Positions 1,591 through 20,505 of a DNA stretch of 23,397 nt are shown here, one piece after another. The translations under genes and the position numbers were made by a program. The notes beneath the pieces are model-generated. The model was not told where the DNA came from. It saw nothing but the letters and a program-made list of their open reading frames with translations, and did no database searches. Position 1 is the first letter of the stretch, and every line of letters begins with the position of its first letter. Source of the stretch: a virus; IMG/VR virus record IMGVR_UViG_3300043446_004602, positions 1 to 23,397 of that record. One strand, given 5' to 3'.

Positions 1591-2748
1591 ATGTATTTAG
1601 AGTATTTTGATAAGTTTCGTAATATGAAACCATACTTCTCAATAGATGAGAAAGAATGGGAATACATAAAGAAAACATTTGACCAACAAGATGTTTTAGA
1701 ATCAATCGGAACAGTCCTTATGGACTATCCACTTCCGTATGCAGACCTTACTATTGAAGATGCACAATATGATTTTATGAAGTTAAAGGGTATTCGATGG
1801 AATGAGCTTATAACCGAAGGGGAATGGAAGGCAAGGCACGAATACCCTTTTGATTTTTTATGGAAAGGTAAATCTCTTTACTTCTCAAGAAGCAATGTAG
1901 GAAACGATTCTTCAAATTTCTTCCAACAGAAAAATCGTTGGGAAGTTGATGCAACACAATCACCTGGACCTGCTAGGTCTTGGACATCTTTAAGATCAAT
2001 GATGTCTATTGCAAAAGCATTTTATACTCTGAAATATCCACACCTCGATAAGAAAATAGTTCGTGGAGCAATGGGACTTCGTAAATATATCTGTTCGCAG
2101 TTTAAACCTAATGTTGCAAAAGCATTGTACGAAATGATGGGTGCGAAAGTTATATTGGATTTCTCTGCGGGTTGGGGAGACAGACTTGCTGGATTTTACG
2201 CTTCTAATGCAGATACATATATCGGTATAGATCCTCGTAAAGAGAACCACCATATTTACAGAAAGCAAATAGAATTCTATGATAAAAATTTAGGATGGTT
2301 TGACTCAAAGAAGAATGTATTCTTATATGAAAGTCCTGCCGAAGATTGGGACAATTCAGAATGGATTAATAAGGTGGACCTTGTATTTACATCACCACCG
2401 TATTTCAATACTGAAAGATACTCATACGATGATACGCAAAGTTGGGTTAGGTATAAGAATGTAGATTCTTGGAATAAAGATTTCTTACACAAAGCCCTTG
2501 ATAATATATGGGCAACTCTTAAATCTGGCGGTTATGCTATAATAAACATAGCAGACATCTACGATAGATCACAACACTCTTATGTTAAAATATGTGAACC
2601 TATGGTGAACTATATGAAAGAAAAAAGTGACTGTGAGTTCGAAGGAGTAATAGGTATGGAACTTTCAGTAAGACCTGCTGACCCTGGTATTGATGAGAAT
2701 GACCCTTCTAAATTCGCTGAACCATGTTGGATTTTTAGAAAGAAATAA
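1591..2748 (+). CDS. TSPPY-type DNA amino-methyltransferase, paralogue 1
   Basis: A 385-residue probable SAM-dependent DNA methyltransferase for an exocyclic amino group (N4-cytosine or N6-adenine). SAM-binding motif I is DFSAGWGDRL (190-199), an acidic motif II follows at IGIDPR (D214), and catalytic motif IV is TSPPYF (267-272). A typical NIAD segment after a GGY turn (313-322) completes the Rossmann sheet. TSPPY is more usual in N4-cytosine enzymes, but the base is not certain. Motif I precedes IV by about 70 residues with no recognition domain between, so recognition probably lies in the long N-terminal region (1-180), which I do not recognise. It is paralogous to the proteins at 6874-8496 and 8493-9560, sharing TSPPYFx2ExYx3[DE]TQS. 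GGAGGT six bases upstream supports the start; the stop overlaps the next ATG (TAATG). Confidence 0.8.
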   Translation: MYLEYFDKFRNMKPYFSIDEKEWEYIKKTFDQQDVLESIGTVLMDYPLPYADLTIEDAQYDFMKLKGIRWNELITEGEWKARHEYPFDFLWKGKSLYFSRSNVGNDSSNFFQQKNRWEVDATQSPGPARSWTSLRSMMSIAKAFYTLKYPHLDKKIVRGAMGLRKYICSQFKPNVAKALYEMMGAKVILDFSAGWGDRLAGFYASNADTYIGIDPRKENHHIYRKQIEFYDKNLGWFDSKKNVFLYESPAEDWDNSEWINKVDLVFTSPPYFNTERYSYDDTQSWVRYKNVDSWNKDFLHKALDNIWATLKSGGYAIINIADIYDRSQHSYVKICEPMVNYMKEKSDCEFEGVIGMELSVRPADPGIDENDPSKFAEPCWIFRKK

Positions 2749-3059
2749 TGGAGAACTTAATGCAACAATTGTCAGTAGAACTAATTAAATCTAGATTTAC
2801 TGCCTATGAATTTTTAGGTACGGAAGAATCTGCAAAAGAATTTTGTAGTAAATGGAATTTTTCTTATATTAAGGATTATATCTATCCGTATCAATATTGT
2901 GTAAAGTTGCCGTCGGGTTCTCTTTTGAGTAAAGGTAATTACCTCGTGGTTGATGGTAATCACTTTGAGATTTATAGTAAATACGATTTTGAATCTAAAT
3001 TTAGAATCTTAAATAAATCATTAGACCGTTATGGTCAAGATAATTTATTTGCCTCTTAA
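2748..3059 (+). CDS. Small PGDYG-like phage protein, copy 1
   Basis: A 103-residue soluble protein coupled to the methyltransferase upstream by a TAATG overlap. It begins with a beta-strand-like segment (ELIKSRFTAYEF), continues with a helix (EESAKEFCSKW) and ends with GNYLVVDGNHFEIYSKYDFE. This order (K...A at the front, a G[DN]Y-[VL]V-DG turn, then an F/Y-E helix) resembles the widespread small phage family named for its PGDYG motif; here the Pro-Gly-Asp is replaced by Lys-Gly-Asn. The function of that family is not known to me. It is clearly homologous to the next gene (shared EESAKEFC.KW and GNY.V.DGN.F), so the two form a tandem duplication. All five glycine codons are GGT and all eight phenylalanine codons TTT. 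Confidence 0.75.
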   Translation: MENLMQQLSVELIKSRFTAYEFLGTEESAKEFCSKWNFSYIKDYIYPYQYCVKLPSGSLLSKGNYLVVDGNHFEIYSKYDFESKFRILNKSLDRYGQDNLFAS

Positions 3060-3089
3060 ATATTTAAACACTAAAATAATATAACTGTT

Positions 3090-3362
3090 ATGGAACTTAT
3101 ACACGTAGAACTAAAAAAGACAAGGTACATGGCATACCTTTTCGACGGAAAGGAAGAATCCGCGAAAGAATTCTGCCGGAAATGGGGATGTGATTACGTT
3201 CAGGATTTCATGGAAAAAGAACTCGTGTCGATTGTATTTCCCAACGGAAAAAAATGTTACGCGGGAAACTATGTCGTTATCGATGGAAACACTTTCACCA
3301 ATTACACACCAGTTGAATTTGAAAAGATATTCAACATAATCAATCATTACCGCCAGTCATAA
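3090..3362 (+). CDS. Small PGDYG-like phage protein, copy 2
   Basis: A 90-residue paralogue of the preceding gene with the same plan: ELKKTRYMAYLF strand, EESAKEFCRKWG helix, a middle strand pair around VFPNGKKCY, then AGNYVVIDGNTFTNY and a terminal FEKIFNII helix. The match to PGDYG-like small phage proteins is clearer than in copy 1, but no biochemical role follows. It starts 30 bases after copy 1; the gap (with ATAATATAAC) has no good Shine-Dalgarno, so the start rests on the alignment with copy 1. Codon choice differs sharply from copy 1: all five glycines are GGA and five of seven phenylalanines TTC. The polymerase ATG follows two bases after the stop. Confidence 0.75.
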   Translation: MELIHVELKKTRYMAYLFDGKEESAKEFCRKWGCDYVQDFMEKELVSIVFPNGKKCYAGNYVVIDGNTFTNYTPVEFEKIFNIINHYRQS

Positions 3363-3363
3363 T

Positions 3364-5880
3364 ATGTATCAAAACATTTTCGTTAAAACAAACACAAACG
3401 AAGCTTGGGTATGGGACGATAAAAAAGGTCTCACTCACTTTAACTACACACCTTACGCATTTAAGAAAGACCCGAACGGAAAGTATCAATCACTTCACGG
3501 TGATAAACTTTCAAAGATTACTTCGTTCGTAAAGAATGACCCAAATCTATTTGAGTCGGATGTTCCTGAGACAACTCGTATTCTTGTGGATATGTACGGC
3601 GATTCGGACATACCGTCGGAAGGTATTGTAACAATGGCATTTGACATTGAGGTAGAAATGATTACGGGTCTACCCGACCCACAATTAGGAAACAACGAAG
3701 TTACTTCGATAGCGTACCACGATTCCGCAACAAATGAATATACGATTCTTCTTCTTGATAAAAAGAAAAGAGTAGAATCAAAAACAATTGGTAATCGTCA
3801 TATTGTATCTTGCAATAACGAGAAAGACCTTCTTCTTAAATTTATTGATGCAATTCACACGATTCAACCGCACATTATGACAGGTTGGAATTGTGATAAC
3901 TTTGATATTCCATATCTTTATAATCGTATCAAAAGAGTATTGGGTAAGAAAGTGGCAAACCAACTTTCAATCATCGGGGAAATGTTTTACTCACCGTATC
4001 GTAATCGATATACTATTGCCGGAACGGCAGTCTTAGATTACATGGTTGTGTATAAAAAGTTTTCCTATGGTGAACTTCCTTCTTACGCACTTAACGCAAT
4101 TTCAATGAAAGAGTTAGGACGTGGTAAGATTGAATACGAAGGAAACCTTGACATCCTAATGGAAAATGATATTGATACGTTTATTGAGTACAATATTACG
4201 GACGTTGAACTTATCCTTGAGTTAGATAAGAAGTTACAATACATTGACTTACTTCGTGGTATTTGTCATGTTGGTCACGTTCCTTATGAGGATTTTGTTT
4301 ATTCATCGAAGTATTTGGAAGGAGCTCTTCTTACTTACTTGAAGAGGGCAGGGAATATTGTTGCTCCGAATAAACCGGCAGACCGACGAGAAAAGATGGA
4401 TGAGTTACGTGAATCGGGTGAAGATGGTTTTATTGGGGCGTTTGTGAAAGACCCTATCCCTGGTAAGTATGAATGGATGTACGACTTGGACTTGACTTCT
4501 CTGTACCCTTCTATCATTATGACTTTGAATATCTCACCTGAAACAAAGGTGGCAAAGATTTTAGATTGGGATGCCGATAAGTTTCTTCGTGGTGAACAAG
4601 AAGAGTATATTGTAAATGGGGAAAAGGTAAGTAAAGATAAACTACAAAAGTTCTTTGACAAGTATCATTATACGGTGGCATCTAATGGTGTGATGTATAA
4701 TACGGATATTGTTGGACTTATTCCCGCTATTCTGAATGAATGGTTCGATAAACGCGTTGAATACAAAGACGCGATGAAGAAGTGGGGTAAAGAAGGAAAC
4801 GACGAGAAGTATGAGTTTTACAAGAAAAGACAGTTGGTTCAAAAGATTCTTCTTAACTCTCTGTACGGTGTGTTAGGTCTTCCTGCATTTCGTTTTTATG
4901 ACATTGACAATGCAGAAGCAGTAACTCTTTCAGGTCAGACGGTTATTAAAAAGACAGAAGCTGCAATCAACATGAAATATAATAAAGAACTAAAGACTGA
5001 TAATTTAGATTATGTTCAGTATGTTGATACTGATTCTGTGTTTGTTTCGTGTTTACCACTTGTGAAGAATCGTTTTCCTGACATTGATACCGATGATGTG
5101 CAACTTATGACCGATAAGATTTATGAGATTGCAACTGAAGTTCAGAATTATGTTAATGGTTTCTACGATGTATTCGCGAAGAAGATATTCAACACAGAGA
5201 AACACCGACTTGAAATCAAACAGGAAATGATTGGACGTACTGGCTTTTGGGTAAAGAAGAAAAGATACGCTCTTTGGATTATTTCAGACAATGGAGTTCC
5301 GATGGACAAGTTAGAAGTTAAAGGACTTGACGTTGTTCGTTCTTCATTCCCGAAGTCATTCCAAAAGTTTATGAAGGAAGTTCTTGTTGATATTCTAAAG
5401 TCGAAAGATAAAGATGACATTGACAATCATATATTGACATTCAAACGTCAGTTGGGTGAAGTTCTTTTTGCTGAGGTTGCAAAGAACTCTTCTATTAAAG
5501 ACATTAAGAAATATGAAGAACCAATCAAGGACGGTGTTCTTGGAACCTTTGCTAAAGGTACACCCTCTCACGTTAAGGCTGCAATTAATTACAACAAGTT
5601 GTTGAAGATGTTCAAGTGTCCTGCCAAATATCCGCCAATCAAGAATGGTGATAAGGTAAAGGTTGCTTATCTAAAGAACAACAAGTATGGTTTAGAAGAA
5701 TTGGCTTTTCGTGGTGATTCTGACCCCGATGAAATTATCCAATTTGTAAAAGACCACTTCGACGCTCAAGAGTTATTTAACTCTGAACTTGATGGTAAAC
5801 TTCGTGCTTTCTATGATGCACTCAAATGGGAATTCCCATCGGAACATAAAAAGAACGCACAAAAGTTTTTTTCTTTCTAA
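3364..5880 (+). CDS. 43: Replicative DNA polymerase, family B (T4 gp43 type)
   Basis: An 838-residue replicative polymerase with a 3'-5' proofreading domain. Exo I is FDIEVE (D94, E96), Exo II is WNCDNFD (D181) and Exo III is YNITD (Y276, D280). Polymerase motif A is DLTSLYPSI (D376), motif B is KILLNSLYG (494-502) and motif C is YVDTDS (D555, D557); KKKRY at 631-635 is the KxY element. All catalytic residues are present, so the enzyme should be active. It is somewhat shorter than T4 gp43 (898 residues), with no intein or obvious insertion. The C-terminus ends AQKFFSF, resembling the short hydrophobic clamp-binding tail of T4-type polymerases, which fits the clamp gene 48 bases downstream. 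No strong Shine-Dalgarno precedes the ATG; coupling from the upstream gene two bases away is likely. Confidence 0.97.
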   Translation: MYQNIFVKTNTNEAWVWDDKKGLTHFNYTPYAFKKDPNGKYQSLHGDKLSKITSFVKNDPNLFESDVPETTRILVDMYGDSDIPSEGIVTMAFDIEVEMITGLPDPQLGNNEVTSIAYHDSATNEYTILLLDKKKRVESKTIGNRHIVSCNNEKDLLLKFIDAIHTIQPHIMTGWNCDNFDIPYLYNRIKRVLGKKVANQLSIIGEMFYSPYRNRYTIAGTAVLDYMVVYKKFSYGELPSYALNAISMKELGRGKIEYEGNLDILMENDIDTFIEYNITDVELILELDKKLQYIDLLRGICHVGHVPYEDFVYSSKYLEGALLTYLKRAGNIVAPNKPADRREKMDELRESGEDGFIGAFVKDPIPGKYEWMYDLDLTSLYPSIIMTLNISPETKVAKILDWDADKFLRGEQEEYIVNGEKVSKDKLQKFFDKYHYTVASNGVMYNTDIVGLIPAILNEWFDKRVEYKDAMKKWGKEGNDEKYEFYKKRQLVQKILLNSLYGVLGLPAFRFYDIDNAEAVTLSGQTVIKKTEAAINMKYNKELKTDNLDYVQYVDTDSVFVSCLPLVKNRFPDIDTDDVQLMTDKIYEIATEVQNYVNGFYDVFAKKIFNTEKHRLEIKQEMIGRTGFWVKKKRYALWIISDNGVPMDKLEVKGLDVVRSSFPKSFQKFMKEVLVDILKSKDKDDIDNHILTFKRQLGEVLFAEVAKNSSIKDIKKYEEPIKDGVLGTFAKGTPSHVKAAINYNKLLKMFKCPAKYPPIKNGDKVKVAYLKNNKYGLEELAFRGDSDPDEIIQFVKDHFDAQELFNSELDGKLRAFYDALKWEFPSEHKKNAQKFFSF

Positions 5881-5883
5881 AAG

Positions 5884-5900
5884 ATTTCGTATATTATATC
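5884..5900 (+). promoter_or_regulatory. Candidate promoter motif upstream of sliding clamp
   Basis: ATTTCGTATATTATATC lies between the polymerase stop and the clamp start. The same 17-mer with one change (G for A at position 13) occurs at 9681-9697, before the clamp-loader gene. TATATT at 5890-5895 fits a -10 box and would give a leader of about 27 bases including the AGGAGA at about 5919. No clear -35 box is seen, so an activator or a phage-specific sigma factor is possible. This is inferred from the shared motif and its position. Confidence 0.5.
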
Positions 5901-5928
5901 AAATAAATTTTACTCATTAGGAGAAGTT

Positions 5929-6648
5929 ATGGAAAAAGCAAGACTTATTAATTTTATAAACAAGTATCACCTCGGCGGTTTAGTCCAGTCTGTTGCTTGG
6001 AATTCCAATGGTTCACTGGCTACACGTTTTATTTCTGATGATAAGTGTGTTGTTGGTGAAATCAAGTTGAATAAATTCAACTCTGATGCTTCAAAGTTTG
6101 GTGTGTATAACACAGACCTACTTGTGAAGTTACTTGGTGTTCTTGGTAACGATGTAAATTTTCAAATCAATTCAAGTGGAGATAAGGCATTTTCTCTAAC
6201 ATTAGATGACAAATCAACTACGGTTAATTATATGTTGGCTGACTTGGCAGTTATTCCACCAACTCCCGAATTGAAAGAATTGCCTCCTTTTGAATTGAAG
6301 ATAAACATCACTAAGGAATTCATCGATAAGTTTATTAAAGCAAAGTCAGCACTTCCTGAAATTGAACACTTCACGGTAATGAAGAACCCAAAATTGGGAA
6401 GGTATCAAATTGTTATTGGATATTCAAACACAAACTCTAATCGAATTTCACTTGATATTGAATGTGAATCTGATTCCGATATTGAACCTATTTCATTCTC
6501 AGCAAAGTATTTCCGTGAGATTCTTGCTTCAAACAAGGATTTAAACGGAGGAACAATGTTGGTATCATCTGAGGGACTTTCTAAGGTTGAGTTTGATATT
6601 GATGATTTTGAGTCTCGATACTTCCTTGTTAAATTGGAGAACAACTAA
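5929..6648 (+). CDS. 45: Sliding clamp (T4 gp45 type)
   Basis: A 239-residue protein in the place and size range of T4 gp45 (228 residues). It should form the trimeric ring that tethers the polymerase to DNA. Family features seen by eye: an N-terminal helix (LINFINKYHLGG), a first domain of short strands ending near LADLAVIPPTP, a linker with ELPPFELKINI like the start of the gp45 second domain, a long helix (KEFIDKFIKAKSAL) and a C-terminal strand series with FSAKYFREILASNKDL. There are no catalytic motifs, as expected. AGGAGA about six bases before the ATG makes the start secure, and a likely promoter lies just upstream, so the clamp can be expressed separately from the polymerase. Clamps diverge fast, but the position after gp43 and the fold-like pattern agree. 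Confidence 0.88.
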   Translation: MEKARLINFINKYHLGGLVQSVAWNSNGSLATRFISDDKCVVGEIKLNKFNSDASKFGVYNTDLLVKLLGVLGNDVNFQINSSGDKAFSLTLDDKSTTVNYMLADLAVIPPTPELKELPPFELKINITKEFIDKFIKAKSALPEIEHFTVMKNPKLGRYQIVIGYSNTNSNRISLDIECESDSDIEPISFSAKYFREILASNKDLNGGTMLVSSEGLSKVEFDIDDFESRYFLVKLENN

Positions 6649-6649
6649 G

Positions 6650-6874
6650 ATGGAAGATTTTTATTGGAAGAAACGAGATTCCTATTGGAAGTCTGATTAT
6701 TATGTAAGTCCTGAAGGACAGGTTGTTGGTGAACTAAATGACAGCCGTGAGAGTAATACATGGAGTGCAAAAGTTTGGAGTGAATCAGATAGACACTTCA
6801 TATTACTTGGAGTCTACATTAGTGAAGAACTTGCTAAGTCTGCAATAGAAAAATATTGTGAGGATAACTGTTAA
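6650..6874 (+). CDS. Small conserved-looking hypothetical protein
   Basis: A 74-residue soluble protein of unknown function. I chose the ATG at 6650, two bases after the clamp stop, because GGAG about ten bases upstream can serve it; a longer frame opens at 6587 but its first 21 residues overlap the clamp coding region and look like noise. The protein is rich in aromatic residues (DFYWKKRDSYW), has a SPEGQVVGE hairpin, then TWSAKVW, and ends in a helix (SEELAKSAIEKYC). The pattern of W.A, a Gly-Val-Tyr turn and an Ala-Lys helix is common in tiny phage proteins, with no known role. Its stop overlaps the next ATG (TAATG), so it is translated together with the methyltransferase. Confidence 0.7.
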   Translation: MEDFYWKKRDSYWKSDYYVSPEGQVVGELNDSRESNTWSAKVWSESDRHFILLGVYISEELAKSAIEKYCEDNC

Positions 6875-8496
6875 TGAAAAAATACTTCTACGAGAAAAGT
6901 AATATTCGCGAATGGCCTACGAATATAACGTATGGAGAATTGATGACGTATAACTCCGACCAGGTTTATACTTGGTTGGAGGATTTGCGTACACGGGTAA
7001 TTACAGACTGGGACGAGAATGGTCAACCACCTTTGGTTGGTAAAGATGAGGGGGAAATAATTCGTTCATTCTCTCGTCTACGTCAACTTGATGCAGGTTC
7101 TCTGTATCATACGTTAATTACACCAAATGACCCTAGTGTTGTTGGTGTGGTTGCTAACTTTACAAAGAATGCAACTGCCTGTAATCAATTCTTCCCAACG
7201 ATGTTGAAAACAAAAATATCGTCTGGTCTTTCAAGTGATAACGCACTTTCCATATATGATCACTTTACGGATAAATTAAAAGATAAGTTTCATCATACAA
7301 TGAAACGAACACTTTATAATGATTCCATGTATTCATATTCTAAATCAATTTTATCTACACAAGTAAAGAATCCGTACTTTCGCGAGGGAGAAACATTACA
7401 TGATTTCTTTACTGCGTATAAAAACGGAGATGGAAGATTTGATGGTCAAGGTTTGCGTATATCAAAAATTTCCTGTACTCTAAAGGAATACAATCGAGAG
7501 TACACAAAGTATCTCACAATAAAAGCAAATGAGATAAAGGAATTCTTGAAAGAAGGTTTGATAGAATCGACGATGGTTACTTATCTCGGAGATGTTGAGG
7601 AATTAGTTGACAATTATTATGTCAAGAATGATTCTTCAGAACCGCGAGTAAATGTGTATCTTATAAAGGCATACGAGAAAAACAAGAGAATATTTCCAAG
7701 TGCGTTACAAACGTTTCGTCTTTCTCTTGGTCAACCTGCAGTAAACTTTCCCCCGATGACTGCAAAGTTCTTGTATGAACATTTCACTAAACATATTCCT
7801 GCTAGTGAAAAAATACACGTTTACGATCCAAGTTCAGGGTGGGGTGGTAGAATACTTGGGGCTATGTCTGTTTCTCGTCCCATACATTATGTAGGGACAG
7901 ATCCTAACACAGATAACTTCATCCCTGAACTTGGTCTATCGCGATATGAATACATGGCTGATTTTTATCTTCGTTCTATTGGTGAAAAAGGAAATAACAT
8001 ATCCAATAAGTTTTTCCAAACGGAAGAGAATCACACATACGAAGTTTTTCAAGATGGCTCTGAATTGATTGGAAATAATCCAAAGTTTCAAAAGTATCGT
8101 GGTAAGATAGATTTTGTTTTTACTTCACCACCGTATTTTAACCGAGAACAATACTCTGAAGATGAAACACAATCATTTAAGGCATACTCACAATATTCTG
8201 ATTGGAGAGATAACTTTCTTCGTCCAACATTAACAACGGCGGTGGAATATCTAAAACACAATAGATACCTCTGTTGGAATATTGCAAATATCCGTGTCTC
8301 TGCAAATAAAGTAATAAATTTAGAGGAAGATTCCATTCAGATTCTTAAAGAACTTGGTATGGAATATAAGGGTAAAATAGGTATGTTAATGGCAAAAATG
8401 ATTGGTAACTCTGATATAGAAGCCCTTACAAATAAAGTTTGGTTTAAGGGTGAATGGTGGAAGGTGGAGCCTATATTTATTTTCTATAAACCATGA
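6874..8496 (+). CDS. TSPPY-type DNA amino-methyltransferase, paralogue 2 (long form)
   Basis: A 540-residue probable SAM-dependent DNA methyltransferase, the longest of three paralogues. Motif I is DPSSGWGGR (318-326), the acidic motif II is GTDPN (D343), motif IV is TSPPYF (417-422) and a NIAN segment follows at 469-472. TSPPYFNREQYSEDETQS matches the family signature of its two relatives. Just before motif I, NFPPMTAKFLYEHF corresponds to the FKPNVAKALYEMM and FRPTAAGVIYKNY segments of the others, a second shared element. The first 280 residues are largely unique, with a charged and aromatic composition; they probably hold target recognition or a partner-binding domain. The enzyme could methylate N4-cytosine or N6-adenine. 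It starts within the previous stop (TAATG) and ends in an ATGA overlap with paralogue 3. Confidence 0.78.
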   Translation: MKKYFYEKSNIREWPTNITYGELMTYNSDQVYTWLEDLRTRVITDWDENGQPPLVGKDEGEIIRSFSRLRQLDAGSLYHTLITPNDPSVVGVVANFTKNATACNQFFPTMLKTKISSGLSSDNALSIYDHFTDKLKDKFHHTMKRTLYNDSMYSYSKSILSTQVKNPYFREGETLHDFFTAYKNGDGRFDGQGLRISKISCTLKEYNREYTKYLTIKANEIKEFLKEGLIESTMVTYLGDVEELVDNYYVKNDSSEPRVNVYLIKAYEKNKRIFPSALQTFRLSLGQPAVNFPPMTAKFLYEHFTKHIPASEKIHVYDPSSGWGGRILGAMSVSRPIHYVGTDPNTDNFIPELGLSRYEYMADFYLRSIGEKGNNISNKFFQTEENHTYEVFQDGSELIGNNPKFQKYRGKIDFVFTSPPYFNREQYSEDETQSFKAYSQYSDWRDNFLRPTLTTAVEYLKHNRYLCWNIANIRVSANKVINLEEDSIQILKELGMEYKGKIGMLMAKMIGNSDIEALTNKVWFKGEWWKVEPIFIFYKP

Positions 8497-9560
8497 CCGA
8501 CGGAAATTCTTTAATAAAGTTTTTTGATGTAGACCCACTTGAAGTTCGTTTGAAAAAAGAAACGGATGAATTTTTTGCTGGCAATCGAGACTTGGATGAT
8601 ACAATTGAGTGTGTCTTTCAGTATTACCGTAAGCATGGTTATCCGTATATGAAAATTACTGAACAGGAAAAACATGAACACATGGTTAAACTACAAAAGT
8701 TCGATTATGATTCTATTTTCAAAGATGGTAATATAATACAAACAATGCACGGACTTCGTTTGGCATGGTCTTACTTTCCGCATGGCATGGAAGTAAAGTG
8801 CGGTAATTCCAAAATGTCTCCTATGGATAATTTCTTGAATGACAAAACATTCAAGATGACAATACGCAAATGTTTGAAGTGGTTAAACAAACATAAGAGT
8901 ATTGCAACTTGGCAAGAAAATCGTTTGCGCCAATCTCTAAAAATCTATTCAGGTGTTCAAGGTGTTTCTAATTTCAGACCAACTGCCGCCGGTGTTATCT
9001 ATAAAAATTATGGCGGTGATGGTGTTATGTGGGATATGTCTTGTGGTTGGGGTGGTAGATTGGTTGGTGCCCTTGCATCACCATACATCAAAACTTATAT
9101 TGGAACAGAACCATCTACGAAAACATTTGAAGGTCTTTGTAAACTACGTGATGATTTTTCTTATCTTAAAAAAGATATTCAACTTCATTGTATGGGTTCG
9201 GAGGATTTCCTACCACCCAAAGAAAGTTTAGACCTGTGTTTTACATCACCGCCGTATTTTGATACCGAGAAATATGCAGACGAGGAAACACAATCCTATA
9301 ATAAGTTTCCAACGAAAAATGAATGGGGTTCAGGTTTCCTTCGTAAAACGTTTTCTAATTGTTATCATGGTCTTAAACCTGGTGGATATATGTTAATAAA
9401 CATTGCCAATACTCCAAAGTACAAAGACTTAGAAGAAATGACAATTAAATATGCAACAGAAGTTGGCTTTGTTCATACTGAAACTTTGCAGTTAATTCTT
9501 TCTGCTGTTATGGGTGCCGGTCACAAATATGAACCAGTTTTTGTTTTTTCCAAACCATGA
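8493..9560 (+). CDS. TSPPY-type DNA amino-methyltransferase, paralogue 3
   Basis: A 355-residue probable SAM-dependent DNA methyltransferase that overlaps paralogue 2 by four bases (ATGA), so the two are likely made in linked amounts and may act together. Motif I is DMSCGWGGRL (181-190), the acidic residue after strand 2 is a glutamate (GTEP, E206) instead of the aspartate in the other two copies, and motif IV is TSPPYF (251-256) with the shared E259, Y261 and ETQS (265-268). GGYMLINIAN (297-306) completes the fold. The N-terminal 170 residues differ from the other copies apart from the FRPTAAGVIY element before motif I. A strong terminator lies about 70 bases after the stop, so this gene closes the upstream transcription unit. 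Confidence 0.78.
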   Translation: MTDGNSLIKFFDVDPLEVRLKKETDEFFAGNRDLDDTIECVFQYYRKHGYPYMKITEQEKHEHMVKLQKFDYDSIFKDGNIIQTMHGLRLAWSYFPHGMEVKCGNSKMSPMDNFLNDKTFKMTIRKCLKWLNKHKSIATWQENRLRQSLKIYSGVQGVSNFRPTAAGVIYKNYGGDGVMWDMSCGWGGRLVGALASPYIKTYIGTEPSTKTFEGLCKLRDDFSYLKKDIQLHCMGSEDFLPPKESLDLCFTSPPYFDTEKYADEETQSYNKFPTKNEWGSGFLRKTFSNCYHGLKPGGYMLINIANTPKYKDLEEMTIKYATEVGFVHTETLQLILSAVMGAGHKYEPVFVFSKP

Positions 9561-9580: not shown

Positions 9581-9661
9581 GTGTCCCCCTCTCCCGTCCT
9601 TTGCGGCGGTGAAGCGGCCGAACATTCTTCCAAAGGGGATTCGGCCGAAATCCCCTTTTTT
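9581..9661 (+). other. GC-rich intergenic island with two alternative hairpins
   Basis: Bases 9581-9660 contain 47 G or C out of 80, and the first 40 bases 29, far above the surrounding AT-rich sequence. The octamer CGGCCGAA occurs at 9615-9622 and again at 9642-9649, where it is part of the palindrome TTCGGCCGAA. The first copy can pair with TTCGGCCG (9640-9647) to form an 8-bp hairpin with a 17-base loop that would compete with the terminator stem at 9632-9658. A 14-codon frame starting at ATG 9568 ends at 9612, just before the first octamer, but has no Shine-Dalgarno. The region may be only a terminator, an attenuator-like switch, a small RNA or foreign DNA. Confidence 0.5.
9632..9661 (+). 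terminator. Rho-independent terminator
   Basis: A perfect 10-bp stem, AAAGGGGATT (9632-9641) with AATCCCCTTT (9649-9658), closes a 7-base loop (CGGCCGA), and the T tract continues to 9661. It ends the transcript of the polymerase-clamp-methyltransferase unit 70 bases after the last stop, directly before the promoter motif of the clamp-loader unit. Confidence 0.9.
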
Positions 9662-9722: not shown

Positions 9723-10661
9723 ATGTTCAATCCCCAACACACTCTTTATGTGGAAAAGTATCGTCCACAATCACTTGACACGTATATTGGAAACGAAACA
9801 ATCAAGGAAACGTTCAAGAGATACCTACAATCAGGTGATGTTCCTCACCTTCTTCTTTATGGTGATGCCGGTAGTGGTAAGACAACACTTGCAAAGATTG
9901 TAGCCAACACAGTTTCAAAAGACAATTACATTTACATAAATGCTTCCGATGAGAACTCCATTGATACCGTCCGAGACAAAATCAAGCAGTTCGCATCATC
10001 TATTGGTTTCGGTGGTTTGAAGATTATCATTCTCGACGAGTCTGATTATCTCACTCCAAATGCACAAGCGGCTCTCCGTAATATCATGGAGACGTTTAGC
10101 AAAACAACACGGTTCATCCTAACGTGTAATTATGTGGACAAGATTATTGACCCGATTCAATCTCGGTGTCAAATCTTCAACATCGTTCCTCCATCCAAGA
10201 AAGATGTTGCTGTTCACACGATGGGAATTCTTGAATCGGAAGGTGTGGAGTTCTCAAAGGAAGATTTAGCACAAATCATCAACATGACTTATCCTGATAT
10301 TCGTCGTGTCCTGAATACAGTTCAACGTTGTATTCTTGATGGTAAGATGCAACTTGATAAAACAACACTTGTTCAAAATAACTTTTACTCAACGATTGTT
10401 GATATTCTAAAGTCTGGTAAGAACAAGAAAGAAAAGTACACAGAGATTCGTCAGATTCTTGCTGACAACTCAATCCGTGATTACAACCCATTGTTCCGTT
10501 ATCTGTATGATAATGTAGAACAATTCGCGAACGGGTTTGTATCGTCAGCCATTCTTATTATCGCGGAATCACAATACAAAGATGCAATGGTAGTAGACCA
10601 TGAAATTAATGCGATGGCAATGTTTATTCAACTAATTATGGAAATCGATCAAAGGAAGTAA
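9723..10661 (+). CDS. 44: Clamp loader ATPase, large subunit (T4 gp44 / RFC-like)
   Basis: A 312-residue AAA+ ATPase that opens and loads the sliding clamp onto primed DNA. The N-terminal EKYRPQSLDTYIG box is typical of RFC and gp44 proteins. Walker A is GDAGSGKT (47-54), Walker B is IIILDESD (102-108), the sensor 1 region is FILTCNY (131-137), and the arginine-finger SRC motif is QSRCQ (146-150). Length and motif order match T4 gp44 (319 residues). The C-terminal 150 residues are helical, as expected for the lid and collar. AAGG about seven bases before the ATG serves as a weak ribosome-binding site. It is the first gene of a new transcription unit and is followed by the zinc-ribbon gene after one base and then by the small-subunit gene. 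Confidence 0.96.
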   Translation: MFNPQHTLYVEKYRPQSLDTYIGNETIKETFKRYLQSGDVPHLLLYGDAGSGKTTLAKIVANTVSKDNYIYINASDENSIDTVRDKIKQFASSIGFGGLKIIILDESDYLTPNAQAALRNIMETFSKTTRFILTCNYVDKIIDPIQSRCQIFNIVPPSKKDVAVHTMGILESEGVEFSKEDLAQIINMTYPDIRRVLNTVQRCILDGKMQLDKTTLVQNNFYSTIVDILKSGKNKKEKYTEIRQILADNSIRDYNPLFRYLYDNVEQFANGFVSSAILIIAESQYKDAMVVDHEINAMAMFIQLIMEIDQRK

Positions 10662-10662
10662 T

Positions 10663-10923
10663 ATGAACAATACACTTGATATTGGTGGTGGACAACCACA
10701 ACGCGTGAATGTAAATTTAAATGAAGCACAAGATTTAACTTGTCCGAAATGTGGCAGTCATTTCTTCAACACAGTATTTATGTTTAAAAAACTATCAGCA
10801 CTTGTTTCACCGAATGGTAGAGAATCTTTGATTCCTATTGAAACCTTCGCGTGTATTGAGTGCGGTACAATTCCTAAAGAACTTTTACCAAAGGCACAAA
10901 ATAATGGCTCGGAACTTATTTGA
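10663..10923 (+). CDS. Zinc-ribbon phage protein
   Basis: An 86-residue protein with two CxxC knuckles, CPKC (27-30) and CIEC (64-67), about 34 residues apart, each followed by Gly, as in a zinc ribbon. Between them FKKLSALVSPNGRESLIPIETFAC is a pattern I recognise from small zinc-ribbon proteins found beside replication genes in T4-like and cyanophage genomes; no function has been established as far as I know. It probably binds zinc and may contact nucleic acid or the replisome. AGGAAG lies just before the ATG, at the end of the clamp-loader gene. Its last 20 bases overlap the start of the clamp-loader small-subunit gene, so it sits inside the gp44-gp62 pair. Confidence 0.82.
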   Translation: MNNTLDIGGGQPQRVNVNLNEAQDLTCPKCGSHFFNTVFMFKKLSALVSPNGRESLIPIETFACIECGTIPKELLPKAQNNGSELI

Positions 10924-11356
10924 TCATATTAAGGGTGTTACCAAAGAAAAAAAGAAATGGGAAACACTTTCAGCTGAAGACCAAAAGACGTGGAACAATT
11001 TTATTGTTTCACGTTGGTTTTCTATGGAGATAGATTTAGTCGAGGCAGTAAATGATTTCCAAAAATACTCCAATGGAATTCTAACTTCAAAGGATTATTA
11101 CAATCTTTTATTCGATGCCTTACCGAAGACATCATTCTTTTTGAAATACACAAAGAAGAAAGGTAAAATTGAGATTGACCAAGAATTCGTTGATATATTT
11201 TGTAAACATTTTCAACTTGGAAAGAAAATCATTTATGAGTATATTGTTGACCTATCGAAGATAAATCCAAATGAACTTGTTTCTGTTTTGGAATCTTATG
11301 GAACGAAGAAAGAAGATATTGAAAAATTCAAGAAACAAATAAAGACAATAAAATGA
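10904..11356 (+). CDS. 62: Clamp loader small subunit (T4 gp62-like)
   Basis: A 150-residue protein taken to be the small subunit that completes the gp44 ATPase ring. The evidence is the position two genes after gp44 and a family-like pattern: LFDHIKGVTKEKKKW at the start, then NNFIVSRWFSMEIDLVEAVN (compare the F-[VM]-N-R-[WG]-[FL]-S...D.V...N signature in phage gp62 proteins), DYYNLLFDALPKTSFFLKY (compare the YDYL...I...KR...W region) and a helical tail. I chose the ATG at 10904 (MARNLF), since an upstream ATG at 10838 in the same frame would overlap the zinc-ribbon gene by 86 bases. The end overlaps an ATG in ATGA. gp62 proteins are poorly conserved, so a structural comparison would be more decisive than sequence. 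Confidence 0.75.
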   Translation: MARNLFDHIKGVTKEKKKWETLSAEDQKTWNNFIVSRWFSMEIDLVEAVNDFQKYSNGILTSKDYYNLLFDALPKTSFFLKYTKKKGKIEIDQEFVDIFCKHFQLGKKIIYEYIVDLSKINPNELVSVLESYGTKKEDIEKFKKQIKTIK

Positions 11357-11367
11357 GGACTAACAAA

Positions 11368-11757
11368 ATGGCGATAAAAGAAATTGACTTGGGTAGAAAG
11401 AAAAACGAAACACCCGATGTATCGGATGTAGTTCGTCTTATGGAAGAACGTCATCCTGAAATGATGGAAGAATTTCGGAAGATACAAAGAGAACAATATG
11501 AATTATTTGCACAAAAACAAATGGCATACGGCAAAGGAAATATTATGCTAGGTGGAGACATTGGTGTAGAAGAAGATAGAGTTGCGGCTATTCGTGGTAT
11601 AACGATTCGACTAAACGATAAAATGCAACGTCTCTTGAATCTAGTTTTGAAGGGTGTTGCTAATCCATTGAAGAACGAGAGTGTGTCTGATACATTTATG
11701 GATATGTCAGTTTATGGTATTATCTCCCTAATAGTTGAACGTGGGGAGTGGAAGTAA
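11368..11757 (+). CDS. DUF1599 / Nmad1-like protein (nucleotide-modification associated)
   Basis: A 129-residue protein whose C-terminal two thirds resemble DUF1599, also called nucleotide modification associated domain 1. The signs are KQMAYGKGNIM, then RGITIRLNDKMQRLLNLVLKG, a short gap with NES, and DTFMDMSVYGIISLIVERG. The first element matches a K..DYG-like motif and the latter two the R..DK..RL.NL and D...D...Y..I motifs of that helical family. The family is found in phages near base-modification genes and is thought to be related to all-alpha nucleotide pyrophosphatases, but its activity is not established here. The start at 11368 has AGGA eight bases upstream; an ATG at 11353, overlapping the previous stop as ATGA, would add five residues. 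The homing-endonuclease cassette begins right after its stop. Confidence 0.65.
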   Translation: MAIKEIDLGRKKNETPDVSDVVRLMEERHPEMMEEFRKIQREQYELFAQKQMAYGKGNIMLGGDIGVEEDRVAAIRGITIRLNDKMQRLLNLVLKGVANPLKNESVSDTFMDMSVYGIISLIVERGEWK

Positions 11758-11809: not shown

Positions 11810-11971
11810 ATGGGGCGTTCAAAGAAATATTACACCGAAGAAGAGTTAGCCAATGCTAATCGTGAAAAGTGTAAACGATATTATGAAAAGAATAAAGAAC
11901 GTCTAAATAGAAAAAGAATGGAAAAATATTGGGAGAATAAATGTGATGAAAGAAATAAAAGTGAGTCCTGA
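11810..11971 (+). CDS. Basic mini-ORF preceding homing endonuclease
   Basis: A 53-residue, lysine- and arginine-rich protein (MGRSKKYYTEEELANANREK, then KRYYEKNKERLNRKRMEKYWENK). This MGR.KKY-TEEE...RYYEKNKE pattern is familiar from short phage and mobile-element proteins or N-terminal segments linked to homing endonucleases, and suggests DNA or RNA contact. It has no clear Shine-Dalgarno. The last 29 bases overlap the endonuclease gene in another frame, so it may drive that gene by coupling, or the two may once have been a single fused gene. It is short, so its status as a real gene rests on the recognisable pattern. Confidence 0.6.
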   Translation: MGRSKKYYTEEELANANREKCKRYYEKNKERLNRKRMEKYWENKCDERNKSES

Positions 11972-12758
11972 TAAATACTATGTCTACATTATATGTGAAT
12001 ATTCGTCTATGTCTCCCATCTACGTCGGTAAAGGAAAGAACAATAGAGTAAAGTGGCATTTATATGCTTCAAAATTTGGCTATCATTACAATAAAAAACT
12101 TGAAAGAAAGTTGAAAAAGATAACGAACAATTTTACAGATATGAACAAAATATCAATACATATTGATTCAGAACACGAAAATGAATATGCTGCACTTGAT
12201 AGAGAATCAAAACTCATAACGGAAATTGGTTTATCAAAATTATGTAATCTTACTCTTGGTGGCGAAAGTCCATCTCTATCTGAAAAAAGTATAAAGAAAA
12301 TTGTAGAATCTAGGAAGTCAAACGGTAAACCTTGGCATAGTGAAGAGACGCGAAAGAGAATTGGAGAAGCCGGCAAGGGCAGAAAACATAACGAAGAAAC
12401 TAAACGTAGATTCAAAGAAAATCACAAGAAACCTATGCTTGAAAAAAATCATACAGATGATGCTAGACAGTTGATGTCAAAAAATCATGTAGATTTCAAT
12501 GGAGAAAAAAACCCATTCTATGGTAAATCTCATAGTAAAGAAGTTCGAGATATGTTCAGATTCAAATATGGGTATGAATGGGTTATACACCACAACGGAA
12601 ATCAAATATTAGTTGTTGGAAAAAGTGGTGTAAAAGAATATGTAGAGAACTATAACAAAGAAAATAATGTTTCAATAAGCTATAAGACATTGATTATGTA
12701 TAAGAAAATAAAAAAACACAACATACAACTTGTTCAAAACGGTAAGTGGGGTAAATAA
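11943..12758 (+). CDS. GIY-YIG homing endonuclease with NUMOD3 repeats
   Basis: A 271-residue site-specific endonuclease. The N-terminal GIY-YIG nuclease is visible as KYYVYIICEY (11-20, GIY position), PIYVGKGKNNRV (25-36, YIG position with R35), the catalytic glutamate in DRESKLITEIG (E88) and CNLTLGGES (101-109). The middle holds NUMOD3-type DNA-binding motifs: SEETRKRIGEAGKGRKH (133-149) and GEKNPFYGKSHSKEVRDMF (187-205). The tail (SGVKEYVENYN...YKTLIMYKK) resembles a small helix-turn-helix. It lacks an intron or intein partner, so it is free-standing. GGGAG seven bases before GTG at 11943 favours that start, but ATG at 11946 removes only one residue and is equally possible. The stop overlaps the next ATG (TAATG). 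Confidence 0.9.
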   Translation: MMKEIKVSPDKYYVYIICEYSSMSPIYVGKGKNNRVKWHLYASKFGYHYNKKLERKLKKITNNFTDMNKISIHIDSEHENEYAALDRESKLITEIGLSKLCNLTLGGESPSLSEKSIKKIVESRKSNGKPWHSEETRKRIGEAGKGRKHNEETKRRFKENHKKPMLEKNHTDDARQLMSKNHVDFNGEKNPFYGKSHSKEVRDMFRFKYGYEWVIHHNGNQILVVGKSGVKEYVENYNKENNVSISYKTLIMYKKIKKHNIQLVQNGKWGK

Positions 12759-13663
12759 TGCCAGCTGCCAAAATTTCCTTTTCACAATATCAAATGTGGA
12801 AGGGATGTCACCACCGTTGGAAGTTGAATTACATTGACAAAGTAGATGTTGGTTCACCATCTCTTGCACTTGTATTTGGTACTGCAATGCACGAAGTCCT
12901 TCAGATGTATATTGAATTAATGTACCGCTCAACAATTCAAGAAGCAAATGAACTTCCTCTTGAGATATTACTGCAAGAAAAAATGCAGGAGGAATACAAA
13001 AAATATCTTGAAGAAAATGATGGCGAACACTTCTCAGATAAGGATGAGATGCAAGAGTATCTTATGGATGGTATTGAAATTATCCGTTGGTTCAAGGCAA
13101 AACGTGATGAGTTTTTTACGAAAACTGATTGGGAACTTCTTGGTATAGAGTTGCCCATAAACATTGTTCCTGTTGAAACACACCCGACGGTTCGTCTTGT
13201 TGGATTTCTTGACCTCGTTATGAAAAATAAAAAGACGGGTAAGATTCACATCTACGATTTTAAAACCTCAACAAGTGGTTGGAACAAGTACACAAAGGCA
13301 GATAAAATAAAAGTATCACAACTCGTTTTATACAAGACCTTTTACGCAAAACAATTTGATATTCACCCCGATGATATTGTTGTTGAATATCTTATTCTGA
13401 AAAGAAAGATTAATGAAGACGCTGAATATGCTGCAATGAGAAAACGTGTTCAACGATTTGAACCTTCACATGGTAAAGTTTCACAGAGCCAAATTCTTAA
13501 AGAGATTCAAAACTTTGTTGTTACTAATTTTGATGAAGAAGGAAATAAGAGAACAGATGTTTTTTACGCACCGATTGCTGGCGAGAATGGAAAGAATTGC
13601 CGTTGGTGTGAATTCAAAGATAGAGATGATTTATGTCCAAAAATAAACAGGATTAAAGAATGA
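12758..13663 (+). CDS. Cas4/RecB-like PD-(D/E)XK nuclease with Fe-S cysteines
   Basis: A 301-residue nuclease of the PD-(D/E)XK superfamily, probably a DNA exonuclease. FSQYQMWKGCHHRWKLNYID at the start has C17 in the usual place; GTAMHEVLQ gives H45; GFLDLV gives D152; YDFKTS gives D167 and K169; SQLVLY (Q188, Y192) is the QxxxY motif. At the C-terminus CRWC (281-284) and C293 complete a four-cysteine set with C17, as in the Fe-S cluster of Cas4 and AddB; the last spacing (eight residues) is slightly longer than in many Cas4 proteins. No CRISPR repeats or other cas genes occur here, so a replication, recombination or DNA-end-processing role is more likely. Start ATG overlaps the endonuclease stop; the end overlaps the next ATG (ATGA). 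Confidence 0.85.
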   Translation: MPAAKISFSQYQMWKGCHHRWKLNYIDKVDVGSPSLALVFGTAMHEVLQMYIELMYRSTIQEANELPLEILLQEKMQEEYKKYLEENDGEHFSDKDEMQEYLMDGIEIIRWFKAKRDEFFTKTDWELLGIELPINIVPVETHPTVRLVGFLDLVMKNKKTGKIHIYDFKTSTSGWNKYTKADKIKVSQLVLYKTFYAKQFDIHPDDIVVEYLILKRKINEDAEYAAMRKRVQRFEPSHGKVSQSQILKEIQNFVVTNFDEEGNKRTDVFYAPIAGENGKNCRWCEFKDRDDLCPKINRIKE

Positions 13664-14691
13664 AATACGCATATACGTTTGATGATTTGCAAATAATCCC
13701 AAAGTATTCAGAGATAGAAAGTCGCGGCCAATGTGAGTTAAGAACTAAATTCACAAAGAGATATGTAATTGGTACACCGCTTGTTTCTTCACCTATGGAC
13801 ACCGTAACCGATTCCAAGATGGCATTATCAATTGCCTCTTATGGTGGAGTAGGTATCATTCATCGATTTATGAAAATAGATGAACAAGTAAAACACGTAT
13901 CAAAAGTAAAGGAACAAGAGAAACTTGTTTCAGCCGCGATTGGTGCAACAGGTGATTATCAAGAACGTGCAACTTCTCTCGCAAGTGCAGGTGCAATAGT
14001 TCTTCTAATTGATGTTGCACATGGCAACACAAAACAAGTAAAAGATGCAATCAAATGGTGTAAAGAAAATCTACCCGAATATGTAGATATAATTGCAGGT
14101 AATGTTGCAACTTATGAAGGTGCAAGAAATCTGGCAGAGTGGGGTGCTGATGCAATTCGTGTTGGTATCGGGAATGGTTCTCTTTGTGAAACGAGAATTA
14201 GAACAGGTGTTGGTATTCCACAGGTTACTGCACTTATCGAATCTATTCGTGCAGTAGAAGAATCAGGAATCGATGTTCCTATTATTGCAGACGGTGGAAT
14301 TAGAATGACGGGTGATGTTGCTAAGGCATTGTCACTTGGTGCAGATTCTGTTATGATTGGTTCACTTCTTGCAGGTACTCGTGAATCTCCCGGTGAGATA
14401 CAACGAATGGGAATGTGGCCGAATGAACAACTCTTCAAAAAGTATCGTGGTTCTGCATCTGCTGAAGTAAAACAAGTTCACGGCTTGGAAGAAAAGAACG
14501 TGGAAGGTAATTCAAAGTTAATTCCTTACAAGGGCAAGGTCGAGAGAATTATAAATGATATTCGTGATGGTGTTCGTTCTTCCATGTCTTATGTAAATGC
14601 AAAGAACATAACGGAGTTTCATGTAAATTCCGAACACGTTTTGATTACACAAAATGGTTTGATTGAAGCAAAACCACACTTGTTATTGTAA
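13660..14691 (+). CDS. IMP dehydrogenase / GMP reductase family enzyme, CBS-less
   Basis: A 343-residue TIM-barrel enzyme of purine nucleotide metabolism. Family motifs: TFDDLQIIPKYS (6-17), SSPMDTVT (43-50), AGNVAT (146-151), the catalytic loop GIGNGSLCETR (169-179, C176), ADGGIR (210-215), MIGSLLAGT (232-240), KYRGSAS (261-267) and EGNSKLIPYKG (282-292). The CBS pair usual in IMP dehydrogenase is absent, and the flap between YRG and EG is about 17 residues, shorter than in IMP dehydrogenase and closer to GMP reductase; the Arg-Tyr flap pair of IMP dehydrogenase is not seen. It may therefore convert GMP to IMP with NADPH, but IMP to XMP cannot be excluded. It overlaps the nuclease gene by ATGA, inside the DNA-metabolism block, and probably adjusts purine pools during replication. 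Confidence 0.85.
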   Translation: MKYAYTFDDLQIIPKYSEIESRGQCELRTKFTKRYVIGTPLVSSPMDTVTDSKMALSIASYGGVGIIHRFMKIDEQVKHVSKVKEQEKLVSAAIGATGDYQERATSLASAGAIVLLIDVAHGNTKQVKDAIKWCKENLPEYVDIIAGNVATYEGARNLAEWGADAIRVGIGNGSLCETRIRTGVGIPQVTALIESIRAVEESGIDVPIIADGGIRMTGDVAKALSLGADSVMIGSLLAGTRESPGEIQRMGMWPNEQLFKKYRGSASAEVKQVHGLEEKNVEGNSKLIPYKGKVERIINDIRDGVRSSMSYVNAKNITEFHVNSEHVLITQNGLIEAKPHLLL

Positions 14692-14748: not shown

Positions 14749-16152
14749 ATGGCAAAGAAAAAGATTCTATTATTATCGGATGATCTCCGACTGACATCAG
14801 GTATCGCTACAGTATCAAGAGATATGGTTATCGGTACTGTTCAACACTTCGATTGGTTCCAAGTCGGAGCCGCTATCAACCATCCTGAAAAGGGAAAGTT
14901 ATTAGACCTATCAGATGACGCTAAGAAATTAACAGGCGTACAAGACGCATCCGTTCGAATCCTATGCAATGATGGATATGGTGATCCATTACTTCTCCGT
15001 CAAATTATTCTTAATGAGAAGCCAGATGCTATTCTTCATTTCACAGACCCAAGATTTTGGGGATGGTTGTATAATATGGAACACGAGATTCGTACAAAGA
15101 TTCCACTTATCTATTTGAACATTTGGGATGACATTCCAGATCCAATGTGGAATAAAGAAGCATACTCAAGTTGTGATTTGTTGATGGCTATCTCTAAACA
15201 AACGTATGGTATTAACAAACGTGTGTTGACACGATGCGGAGAACCAACACCTCAACATAGAATAACTTATGTTCCTCACGGGATAGATACAGAAACTTTT
15301 CAACCTCTGACATCTTCACATAAAGATTGGGAAAGATTCAGTAAAGAAAATTCTATAATAAGAAATAACAATTCAAATAAGTTTGTAGTTGGTTGGAATA
15401 ACAGAAACATTCATCGTAAACATCCAGGTGATGTTATTCTGTCTTACAAACATCTCTGTGAACTCGTTGATAAAAATGGTGGTGATGCTAAGAATGATTG
15501 TCTATTACTAATGCACACTCAACCTGTGGATCCAAATGGAACAGATTTAACTGCGGTAGCAAGTGAGTTGTGTCCAGAATATCCTATAATGTTTAGTGAT
15601 AAAGTATTACCGTCCGATCAAATGAATCTTTTATACAACAGTATGGATGTTGTAATCAATATGGCTTCAAATGAAGGGTTCGGTTTAGCTACGGCGGAAG
15701 CAATGGCTGCTGGTGTACCTATAATTGTAAATGTCACAGGTGGTATGCAAGACCATTGCGGATTTATTAATCCGAAAACAGGAAAGTTCTTTACCGCTGA
15801 TGATTACGTTGAAGTGAAAACACTTCATAGAAAAGATGAGTGGGGACACTTACAACATGGTGAATGGGTAAAGCCCGTTTGGCCATCAAACATTTCTCTA
15901 CAAGGTTCTGTTCCAACTCCGTATATTTTCGATGACCGTGCAGACTTCCGTGATTTTGGTAATGCTTTATATGAGTGGTACACGATGTCAAAAGAAGAAC
16001 GTAAAGCCGCTGGTCTAAAGGGTCGTGATTATATTATGAATCCCGAAGTCGGTATGAGTAAAGTTAATATGTGTGAACGTATTTCCAAGAGTATCAATGA
16101 TACATTCGAAAACTTCACACCAAGAAATAGATATGAGTTACATTTAGCATAA
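14749..16152 (+). CDS. Glycosyltransferase, GT4-like (GT-B fold)
   Basis: A 467-residue retaining glycosyltransferase by fold and motif. The N-terminal domain opens with KILLLSDDLRLTSGIATVSR, a nucleotide-sugar-enzyme-like first strand with a Gly-rich turn; VPHGID (175-180) ends it; the C-terminal domain has NRNIHRKHPGDVILSY (218-233) and the donor-binding EX7E motif NEGFGLATAEAMAAGVP (E309, E317). Donor and acceptor cannot be read from the sequence. AAAGG six bases before the ATG supports the start. It begins a run of ten sugar-related genes and is followed after eight bases by a second GT-B enzyme. There are no membrane segments, so it is cytoplasmic. Confidence 0.88.
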   Translation: MAKKKILLLSDDLRLTSGIATVSRDMVIGTVQHFDWFQVGAAINHPEKGKLLDLSDDAKKLTGVQDASVRILCNDGYGDPLLLRQIILNEKPDAILHFTDPRFWGWLYNMEHEIRTKIPLIYLNIWDDIPDPMWNKEAYSSCDLLMAISKQTYGINKRVLTRCGEPTPQHRITYVPHGIDTETFQPLTSSHKDWERFSKENSIIRNNNSNKFVVGWNNRNIHRKHPGDVILSYKHLCELVDKNGGDAKNDCLLLMHTQPVDPNGTDLTAVASELCPEYPIMFSDKVLPSDQMNLLYNSMDVVINMASNEGFGLATAEAMAAGVPIIVNVTGGMQDHCGFINPKTGKFFTADDYVEVKTLHRKDEWGHLQHGEWVKPVWPSNISLQGSVPTPYIFDDRADFRDFGNALYEWYTMSKEERKAAGLKGRDYIMNPEVGMSKVNMCERISKSINDTFENFTPRNRYELHLA

Positions 16153-16160
16153 GGAATAAT

Positions 16161-20018: not shown

Positions 20019-20505
20019 ATTAAATTTAGCCTGCGGACAAATGTATATCGATGGATATATCAACATCGATAATAAATCAATGTATCATGGTGACATGAGA
20101 GTGGATGTTGTACAAGATATTTTTACTTTACAATGGGAAAACAATTCTGTTGATGAAATACTTTTATCACATTTTGCAATGTATATTTCTTATCAAGAAA
20201 TGTCTGTACTACTTAAACGTTGGTATAATTGGTTGCGTAAAGGTGGTCGATTAATTATGGAAACAGGAAATGTTAAATCGATTGCAAAAACAATATTAGA
20301 ATCTGAAGATCCAAATGTGATAAATGGACCAAATGGTGTTATGCAACTTTTTGGTTGGGAGACAACTGCCGGTCATAAATGGGCTTGGTGTCCAGAAACT
20401 TTAGGTCAATCTATGATTAATGCAGGATTTGAGGATATTCAATACGGTGAAGGAGTCTATCACCGAAATCCAGAGAGAGATTTTATAATAGTAGGTACTA
20501 AATAA
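20002..20505 (+). CDS. Class I SAM-dependent methyltransferase (sugar cluster)
   Basis: A 167-residue small methyltransferase. SAM motif I is KLNLACG (6-12), followed by DGYINIDNKS (17-26), with the acidic D23 at the end of strand 2; VDEILLSHFAMYIS and LRKGGRLIMETGN are the later strands of the Rossmann fold. It lacks the TSPPY catalytic motif, so it is not related in function to the three DNA-type enzymes upstream. In this context it probably methylates a sugar or a precursor; no acceptor is visible. Its first 17 bases overlap the aminotransferase gene. It is short for the class but all core strands appear present. Confidence 0.82.
   Translation: MQSEVKLNLACGQMYIDGYINIDNKSMYHGDMRVDVVQDIFTLQWENNSVDEILLSHFAMYISYQEMSVLLKRWYNWLRKGGRLIMETGNVKSIAKTILESEDPNVINGPNGVMQLFGWETTAGHKWAWCPETLGQSMINAGFEDIQYGEGVYHRNPERDFIIVGTK

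Follow-up and report, generated by a model that had tools for sequence, protein, structure and literature searches.

Three old subfamilies of SPPY amino-methyltransferases, probably orphan DNA methylases, in the replication block of a large phage

Why should one phage keep three related methyltransferase genes among its replication genes, and on what do their products act? These questions are raised by a 23.4-kb IMG/VR virus record, the whole of which is referred to here as the window. Judged from their sequences, the three proteins (types 1, 2 and 3) are probably active orphan SAM-dependent amino-methyltransferases that work on DNA, most likely at N4 of cytosine, and that would shield the phage genome.

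Translation of the three ORFs bore out an earlier sequence-only reading of the window, according to which they share a motif X (F.P..A..[IL]Y), a motif I and a TSPPYFx2ExYx3[DE]TQS element. The type 1 gene (1591..2748, plus strand, with GGAGG just upstream) encodes 385 aa starting with MYLxYFDKF and comprising an N-domain (~1-165), motif X (171-180, FKPNVAKALY), motif I (190-198, DFSAGWGDR), motif IV (TSPPYF, 267-272) and an ExY...TQS element that extends up to residue 284. The type 2 protein (6874..8496, plus strand, 540 aa) has a near-invariant MKKYFYEK start and an N-domain (~1-285) with an additional alpha/beta stretch of ~120 residues, followed by motif X (292-301, FPPMTAKFLY), motif I (318-326, DPSSGWGGR), motif IV (417-422) and ETQS (431-434). 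The type 3 gene (8493..9560, plus strand, 355 aa) is coupled to the type 2 gene by an ATGA overlap, which proved real, at 8493-8496; its product has a predicted mainly helical N-domain (~12-150), motif X (161-170, FRPTAAGVIY), motif I (181-189, DMSCGWGGR), motif IV (251-256) and ETQS (265-268). The motif IV stretches of the three enzymes are TSPPYFNTERYSYDDTQS, TSPPYFNREQYSEDETQS and TSPPYFDTEKYADEETQS. Common to all is the order N-domain, motif X, motif I, acidic motif II, an invariant E, FTSPPYF, ExY and QS, after which come W..FL, NI and, close to the C-terminus, EP; motif I lies at residue 181-318 across the three enzymes and motif IV 70-100 residues further on.

The pattern TSPPYFxxExY occurred in exactly three of the 86 ORFs of the window and in none of 2000 residue shuffles. 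One enzyme used as query (P0003) recovered the other two within the record (E = 4e-25 and 7e-16), and in profile-profile comparisons of orthologue alignments every pair among the three types matched with 99.9% probability and E-values of 1e-33 to 1e-36. The earlier description of the three as paralogous therefore stands as far as homology is concerned, but a recent duplication does not agree with the trees. In the phage tree, types 1, 2 and 3 formed three groups on long branches. When members from bacterial records were added (some of them MAG contigs, probably of phage origin and placed in bacterial bins, such as L222, which has its own polymerase and clamp), type 1 joined planctomycete and actinobacterial copies (support 99/96), type 2 joined alphaproteobacterial, Flavobacteriales and ignavibacterial copies (92/82; core 98/98) and type 3 joined Bacteroidota, acidobacterial and Vibrio phage copies (95/89). 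Several bacterial-record members match the subfamily profiles over the N-domain too (type 1, residues 8-375 in L218; type 2, 3-536 in L220 and 5-187 plus 233-537 in L228; type 3, 34-354 in L198), indicating that the types split before the lineage of the window phage. Each of the three types is thus an old subfamily with members on unrelated mobile elements; tree support is strong for two of them and moderate for the third. Recent tandem duplication is ruled out, the subfamilies being old and including unrelated hosts; they may have originated by duplication in a phage or by separate arrival.

With regard to the N-domains, said earlier to have little visible similarity, the description holds for type 2, which is just weakly like the others: its N-domain alone aligned in the same register with those of type 3 (P=0.016) and type 1 (P=0.045), the matches falling at a common P-Y/P...E....KL element. 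The description does not hold for types 1 and 3, whose N-domains are homologous and aligned over 107 columns (P=2e-5). No family of their own was found for the N-domains in Pfam, PHROG or NCBIfam. In types 2 and 3 they change faster than the catalytic domains, in type 1 about as fast; for pairs inside a subfamily, the lowest N-domain identity was 0.50-0.80 where catalytic identity was 0.80-0.95, and this comparison gave no sign of wholesale N-domain swapping between close relatives. The earlier suggestion that different N-domains serve different target sites gains from these results, since N-domains of three kinds, each old and conserved separately, fit three targets.

TSPPYF was intact in all 154 aligned orthologues of the three types and motif I (D.S.G[WYF]G.R) in 152/154. 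The dN/dS ratios against near relatives were 0.05-0.16; those for which dS is above 1, and so saturated, are rough. These ratios, together with motifs that are intact in essentially all orthologues, indicate that three active enzymes are maintained rather than one plus dead partners, and a dead or regulatory subunit among the three is ruled out. An oligomeric modification complex had also been proposed; in the form of a single hetero-oligomer, its subunits would read sequence for one another. The translational coupling of the type 2 and 3 genes and the neighbourhood of all three in the window lineage would suit such an arrangement, but the presence of SPPY in every aligned copy and of motif I in nearly all argues against it, as do genomes with a different set: L099/G013 has types 1 and 2 but lacks type 3, the Vibrio phage has one type 3 gene only, and others have tandem copies of one type. 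Linkage is not fixed across lineages. The complex is not needed to explain enzymes that each have a complete catalytic motif set and relatives with one type alone, and we consider it very doubtful.

The [DE]TQS element had been taken as a hint that the family might do something other than plain methylation. QS after motif IV was kept in 154/154 aligned members of the three types, whereas permuted TSPPYF enzymes from the same scan have motif IV before motif I (DPFAGSGT after IV) and are without ExY...QS, which marks the element as a family signature. Alignments thus identify ExY...QS / [DE]TQS as a loop that follows motif IV and is peculiar to this family, whose members are in other respects SPPY enzymes of the standard kind; it is a hallmark and not a sign of different chemistry. 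Members from Twort-like phages are without the [DE]TQS element and retain motif IV and ExY. The present enzymes also differ from the permuted ones in having an N-terminal variable domain and motif I first; beta-class (permuted) amino-methyltransferases such as rotifer N4CMT have IV before I, an order that none of the three shows.

The sequence-only reading would have been refuted by a profile match to an RNA or protein methyltransferase family; none appeared above the cut-off in profile searches of the three enzymes, which returned DNA-methylase matches. PF01555 (DNA methylase) scored 28.1, 28.0 and 28.7 bits against a gathering cut-off of 26.7, in matches that cover just 69-106 of 221 profile positions. 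The phage family phrog_12517, which has no assigned function, and the DNA methyltransferase families phrog_498/phrog_67 matched all three, either from motif I to motif VI or around motif IV, with little coverage of the N-domain; we know no characterised member of these families. PADLOC models of type II methyltransferases gave mostly generic matches, and a mad2 match of type 3 was weak and confined to the catalytic part. The assignment to DNA methylases draws on these profiles and on SPPY. As for the base, all three enzymes contain FTSPPY, in agreement with [LIVMF]-T-S-P-P-[FY], which we take to be the classical N4-cytosine signature, PROSITE PS00093. The TSPPY N4-cytosine methylases of PF01555/IPR017985 have the same FTSPPY catalytic motif together with SAM motif I, and the homologue from Vibrio phage 2.058.O (41.6% to type 3) is annotated as an N-4 cytosine-specific DNA methylase through IPR017985. 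SPPY, as opposed to DPPY or NPPY, accompanies most bacterial N4C enzymes, and in rotifer N4CMT, an analogy only since it belongs to the permuted class, changing SPPY to APPA abolished 4mC (PMC8885841). The signature and the loss of 4mC in the rotifer mutant are the grounds for preferring cytosine. Some SPPY enzymes methylate adenine, and PF01555 spans both chemistries, so that the base is not certain from sequence; N6-adenine methylation by the three, or a mixture among them, nevertheless seems unlikely in view of the exact FTSPPY string and the IPR017985 assignment of the Vibrio homologue. A literature search gave no paper joining TSPPY, phage and methyltransferase, and measured activity was found for no member of the family, the annotations of which are based on motifs. 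On present evidence the enzymes are an uncharacterised, widespread SPPY amino-methyltransferase variant with unusual multiplicity, a link to the replisome genes and no new chemistry.

Relatives of solved structure were not found by sequence at a useful E-value. The predicted model of type 3 is confident (pLDDT 92.4, pTM 0.89), with a mainly helical N-domain followed by a Rossmann methyltransferase, and that of type 2 is fair (pLDDT 81.0, pTM 0.73), with the alpha/beta stretch in its longer N-domain. In VIA-align comparisons the solved catalytic domains closest to the type 3 model were those of Trm11, TrmN and Trm14 (Z 17.6-18.6, rmsd 2.4-2.9 over 173-179 residues, 14-19% identity), the same proteins matching the type 2 model best (Z about 14); m1A58 and many further class I enzymes reached Z 15-17 against the type 3 catalytic domain, and EcoKI HsdM was among the Foldseek matches. 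The best structural neighbours of the models are class I nucleic-acid methyltransferases, a likeness of fold that says nothing on the substrate. Methylation of RNA (tRNA or phage mRNA, say), as by Trm11/TrmN, could be read from these best matches and from the many RNA enzymes among the structural matches, but the tRNA enzymes stand only slightly above the next group, and the likeness lies mainly in the shared Rossmann catalytic part. Trm11, TrmN and Trm14, which are tRNA guanine-N2 methyltransferases, use DPPY/NPPY and carry an alpha/beta THUMP domain, whereas SPPY is found here in all aligned orthologues and the N-domain of type 3 is modelled mainly as helices, which does not look like THUMP. 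As the profiles also point to DNA methylases, we regard RNA as an improbable substrate. In BFVD, the leading matches, mostly giant-virus proteins, extend over the greater part of the type 3 model (TM 0.58-0.74 for the first ten, 14-22% identity). Most of the named ones are pithovirus proteins, several labelled site-specific DNA-methyltransferase (cytosine-N4-specific) by annotation, and satyrvirus and salmon gill poxvirus proteins are also included. The likeness to these proteins of viruses with eukaryotic hosts is one of structure only, their functions are given by annotation, and some carry unrelated names (glutathione synthase, type I RM).

Single-protein scans with types 1, 2 and 3 found 53, 80 and 72 viral loci, and a scan with the family alignment found at least 554 confirmed stretches. 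Named phages with homologues are, besides the Vibrio phage, Bacteroides phages DAC16-23 and SJC03 and Twort-like Staphylococcus/Mammaliicoccus phages, some with two copies. Among 30 IMG/VR contigs of relatives (54-289 kb), at least two full members (matches above 240 bits) were present in 26 and at least three in 17, counts that describe carriers and not all phages, since the contigs were selected for holding a member. The contig of the nearest relative (L005) holds a fourth, type-1-like copy (L352, 413 aa, 582 bits), and some relatives have type 1 genes, or type 2 genes, in tandem. Divergent TCPPY methyltransferases of ~300 aa were also seen in relatives' contigs (L353:858-1766, L353:2390-3343, L354:8101-9030 and L355:1131-2039), and the number of methyltransferases per genome is therefore higher than the three to four family members. 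The family extends to plasmids and prophage-like islands; some relatives in cellular genomes lie near integrases, terminases or other methyltransferases, and no partner gene common to them was found among the neighbours. A type-1-like protein on a Pseudoalteromonas contig (L218:5227-6675), for which a plasmid homologue was found, has CPPPF as motif IV, and its active site is possibly changed or dead. In Ignavibacteria prophage-like regions, just before terminase-like genes, there are fusion proteins (L208:5335-6837, L210:5311-6837 and L214) in which the family catalytic domain is preceded by a stretch that by eye resembles ParB and has no Pfam match.

The genes around the three enzymes are those of a replisome. 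A family B DNA polymerase (T4 gp43-like, 3364..5880) and a sliding clamp (gp45-like, 5929..6648, phrog_223) lie between types 1 and 2, and the large (gp44-like, 9723..10661, phrog_168) and small (gp62-like, 10838..11356, phrog_225) clamp loader subunits follow type 3, all on the plus strand. The type 1 gene had been placed just before a polymerase pair; it is near, but two small plus-strand ORFs of no assigned function intervene (2748-3059, which overlaps the type 1 stop, and 3090-3362), and the pair is polymerase plus clamp. A further small plus-strand ORF without family match (6587..6874, 95 aa as listed) lies between clamp and type 2. Just 3' of type 3, a consensus scan marked a terminator-like hairpin with T tail (9632..9658, plus strand), in a region where such sites equal the shuffle mean in number.

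The window lineage has the order type 1, polymerase, clamp, type 2, type 3, clamp loader, and a second lineage the order polymerase, clamp, type 1, clamp loader (L007, L014, L017, L036 and the Flavobacteriales record L222). As the genes sit with polymerase, clamp and clamp loader, their main role might be control of replication or expression (marking of new strands, timing of late genes) rather than anti-restriction, and N-domains that are unswapped inside a subfamily, unlike a possible arms-race pattern, would agree with this. However, phage early genes with a wide range of functions are found close to the replisome, in other, more distant lineages types 2 and 3 lie elsewhere, and members occur on plasmids and prophage-like islands; such a main role thus has a small though appreciable chance.

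A more specific proposal, that the enzymes are tethered to the phage clamp and modify DNA leaving the replisome with three specificities at once, is a long shot. An aromatic pair falls within the first 12 residues of all three (MYLEYF, MKKYFY, SLIKFF) and of no other product among the 26 window genes checked, against a background of 9% per 12-mer and in a post hoc test made after seeing the data. The pairs resemble the polymerase C-terminus, AQKFFSF, kept in the lineage (SIERFF in another) and probably a clamp-binding peptide, and the way in which the genes are arranged about clamp and clamp loader in both lineages is circumstantial support for a tether. The pair is kept in 49/49 type 2 and 29/41 type 1 proteins but in only 5/64 of type 3 among those aligned, which is why we hold the idea at low probability. 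No paper on clamp-coupled phage methylation was found in the literature search.

Polymerase, clamp, loader, nucleases, IMPDH and glycosyltransferases make the window fit a large T4-like phage. Besides a RecB-like PDDEXK_1 nuclease, it encodes a free-standing GIY-YIG/NUMOD3 homing endonuclease (11943-12758) within the replication block; the polymerase is split into two ORFs in L005, L064 and L045, with a GIY-like ORF between the halves in L005. A complete IMP dehydrogenase/GMP reductase gene (13660-14691; PF00478, E 2e-107) has relatives in L053 and L131. It is followed by a sugar-decoration cluster (14749-22952) with a long glycosyltransferase run, the first of which is conserved beside the replication block in many relatives, and, by eye, a DegT-like aminotransferase, a NAD-dependent epimerase and a hexapeptide acyltransferase. 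The window has a single clear minus-strand gene (619-1506), for a metallo-beta-lactamase-fold protein with a signal-like N-terminus; it was not seen among the relatives' loci displayed and is perhaps a recent insertion. Conserved downstream of the clamp loader is a gene for 134 aa (11353-11757) matching phrog_1485 and, below cut-off, DUF1599 (nucleotide modification associated domain 1). No hypermodification pathway was recognised. Neither was a restriction enzyme partner recognised by Pfam/PHROG among the neighbours, several small ORFs of which had no match.

Anti-restriction is the usual explanation for orphan methyltransferase genes of phages. In our preferred reading as DNA-shielding methylases, the C-terminal Rossmann domain would bind SAM and methylate a flipped base via SPPY, while the N-terminal domain would read the target; as this domain differs by subfamily, each enzyme would mark its own site on replicating phage DNA. 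Progeny DNA would thereby be shielded from host restriction enzymes of several specificities, with possible additional functions in timing or marking. Computed support comes from homology, intact SAM/SPPY motifs, the class I fold, the old subfamilies, purifying selection and placement in the replisome block. In gut phages 4mC is common by PacBio, and many phage type II methyltransferases are without a nuclease (PMC10711547). By analogy with Pithovirus sibericum, whose predicted DNA methyltransferase is expressed and whose DNA is unmethylated (PMC7253447), an intact gene may not imply a modified genome.

The three enzymes appear to belong to a large, old and apparently uncharacterised SPPY family, recognisable by a readable signature (TSPPYF-x2-E-x-Y-x3-9-QS, motif I first, N-terminal variable domain) and spread over large phages, plasmids and prophage-like islands and, by structure, also giant viruses. 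With at least three members per phage in over half of the long contigs, the role of repeated amino-methylation is directly testable.
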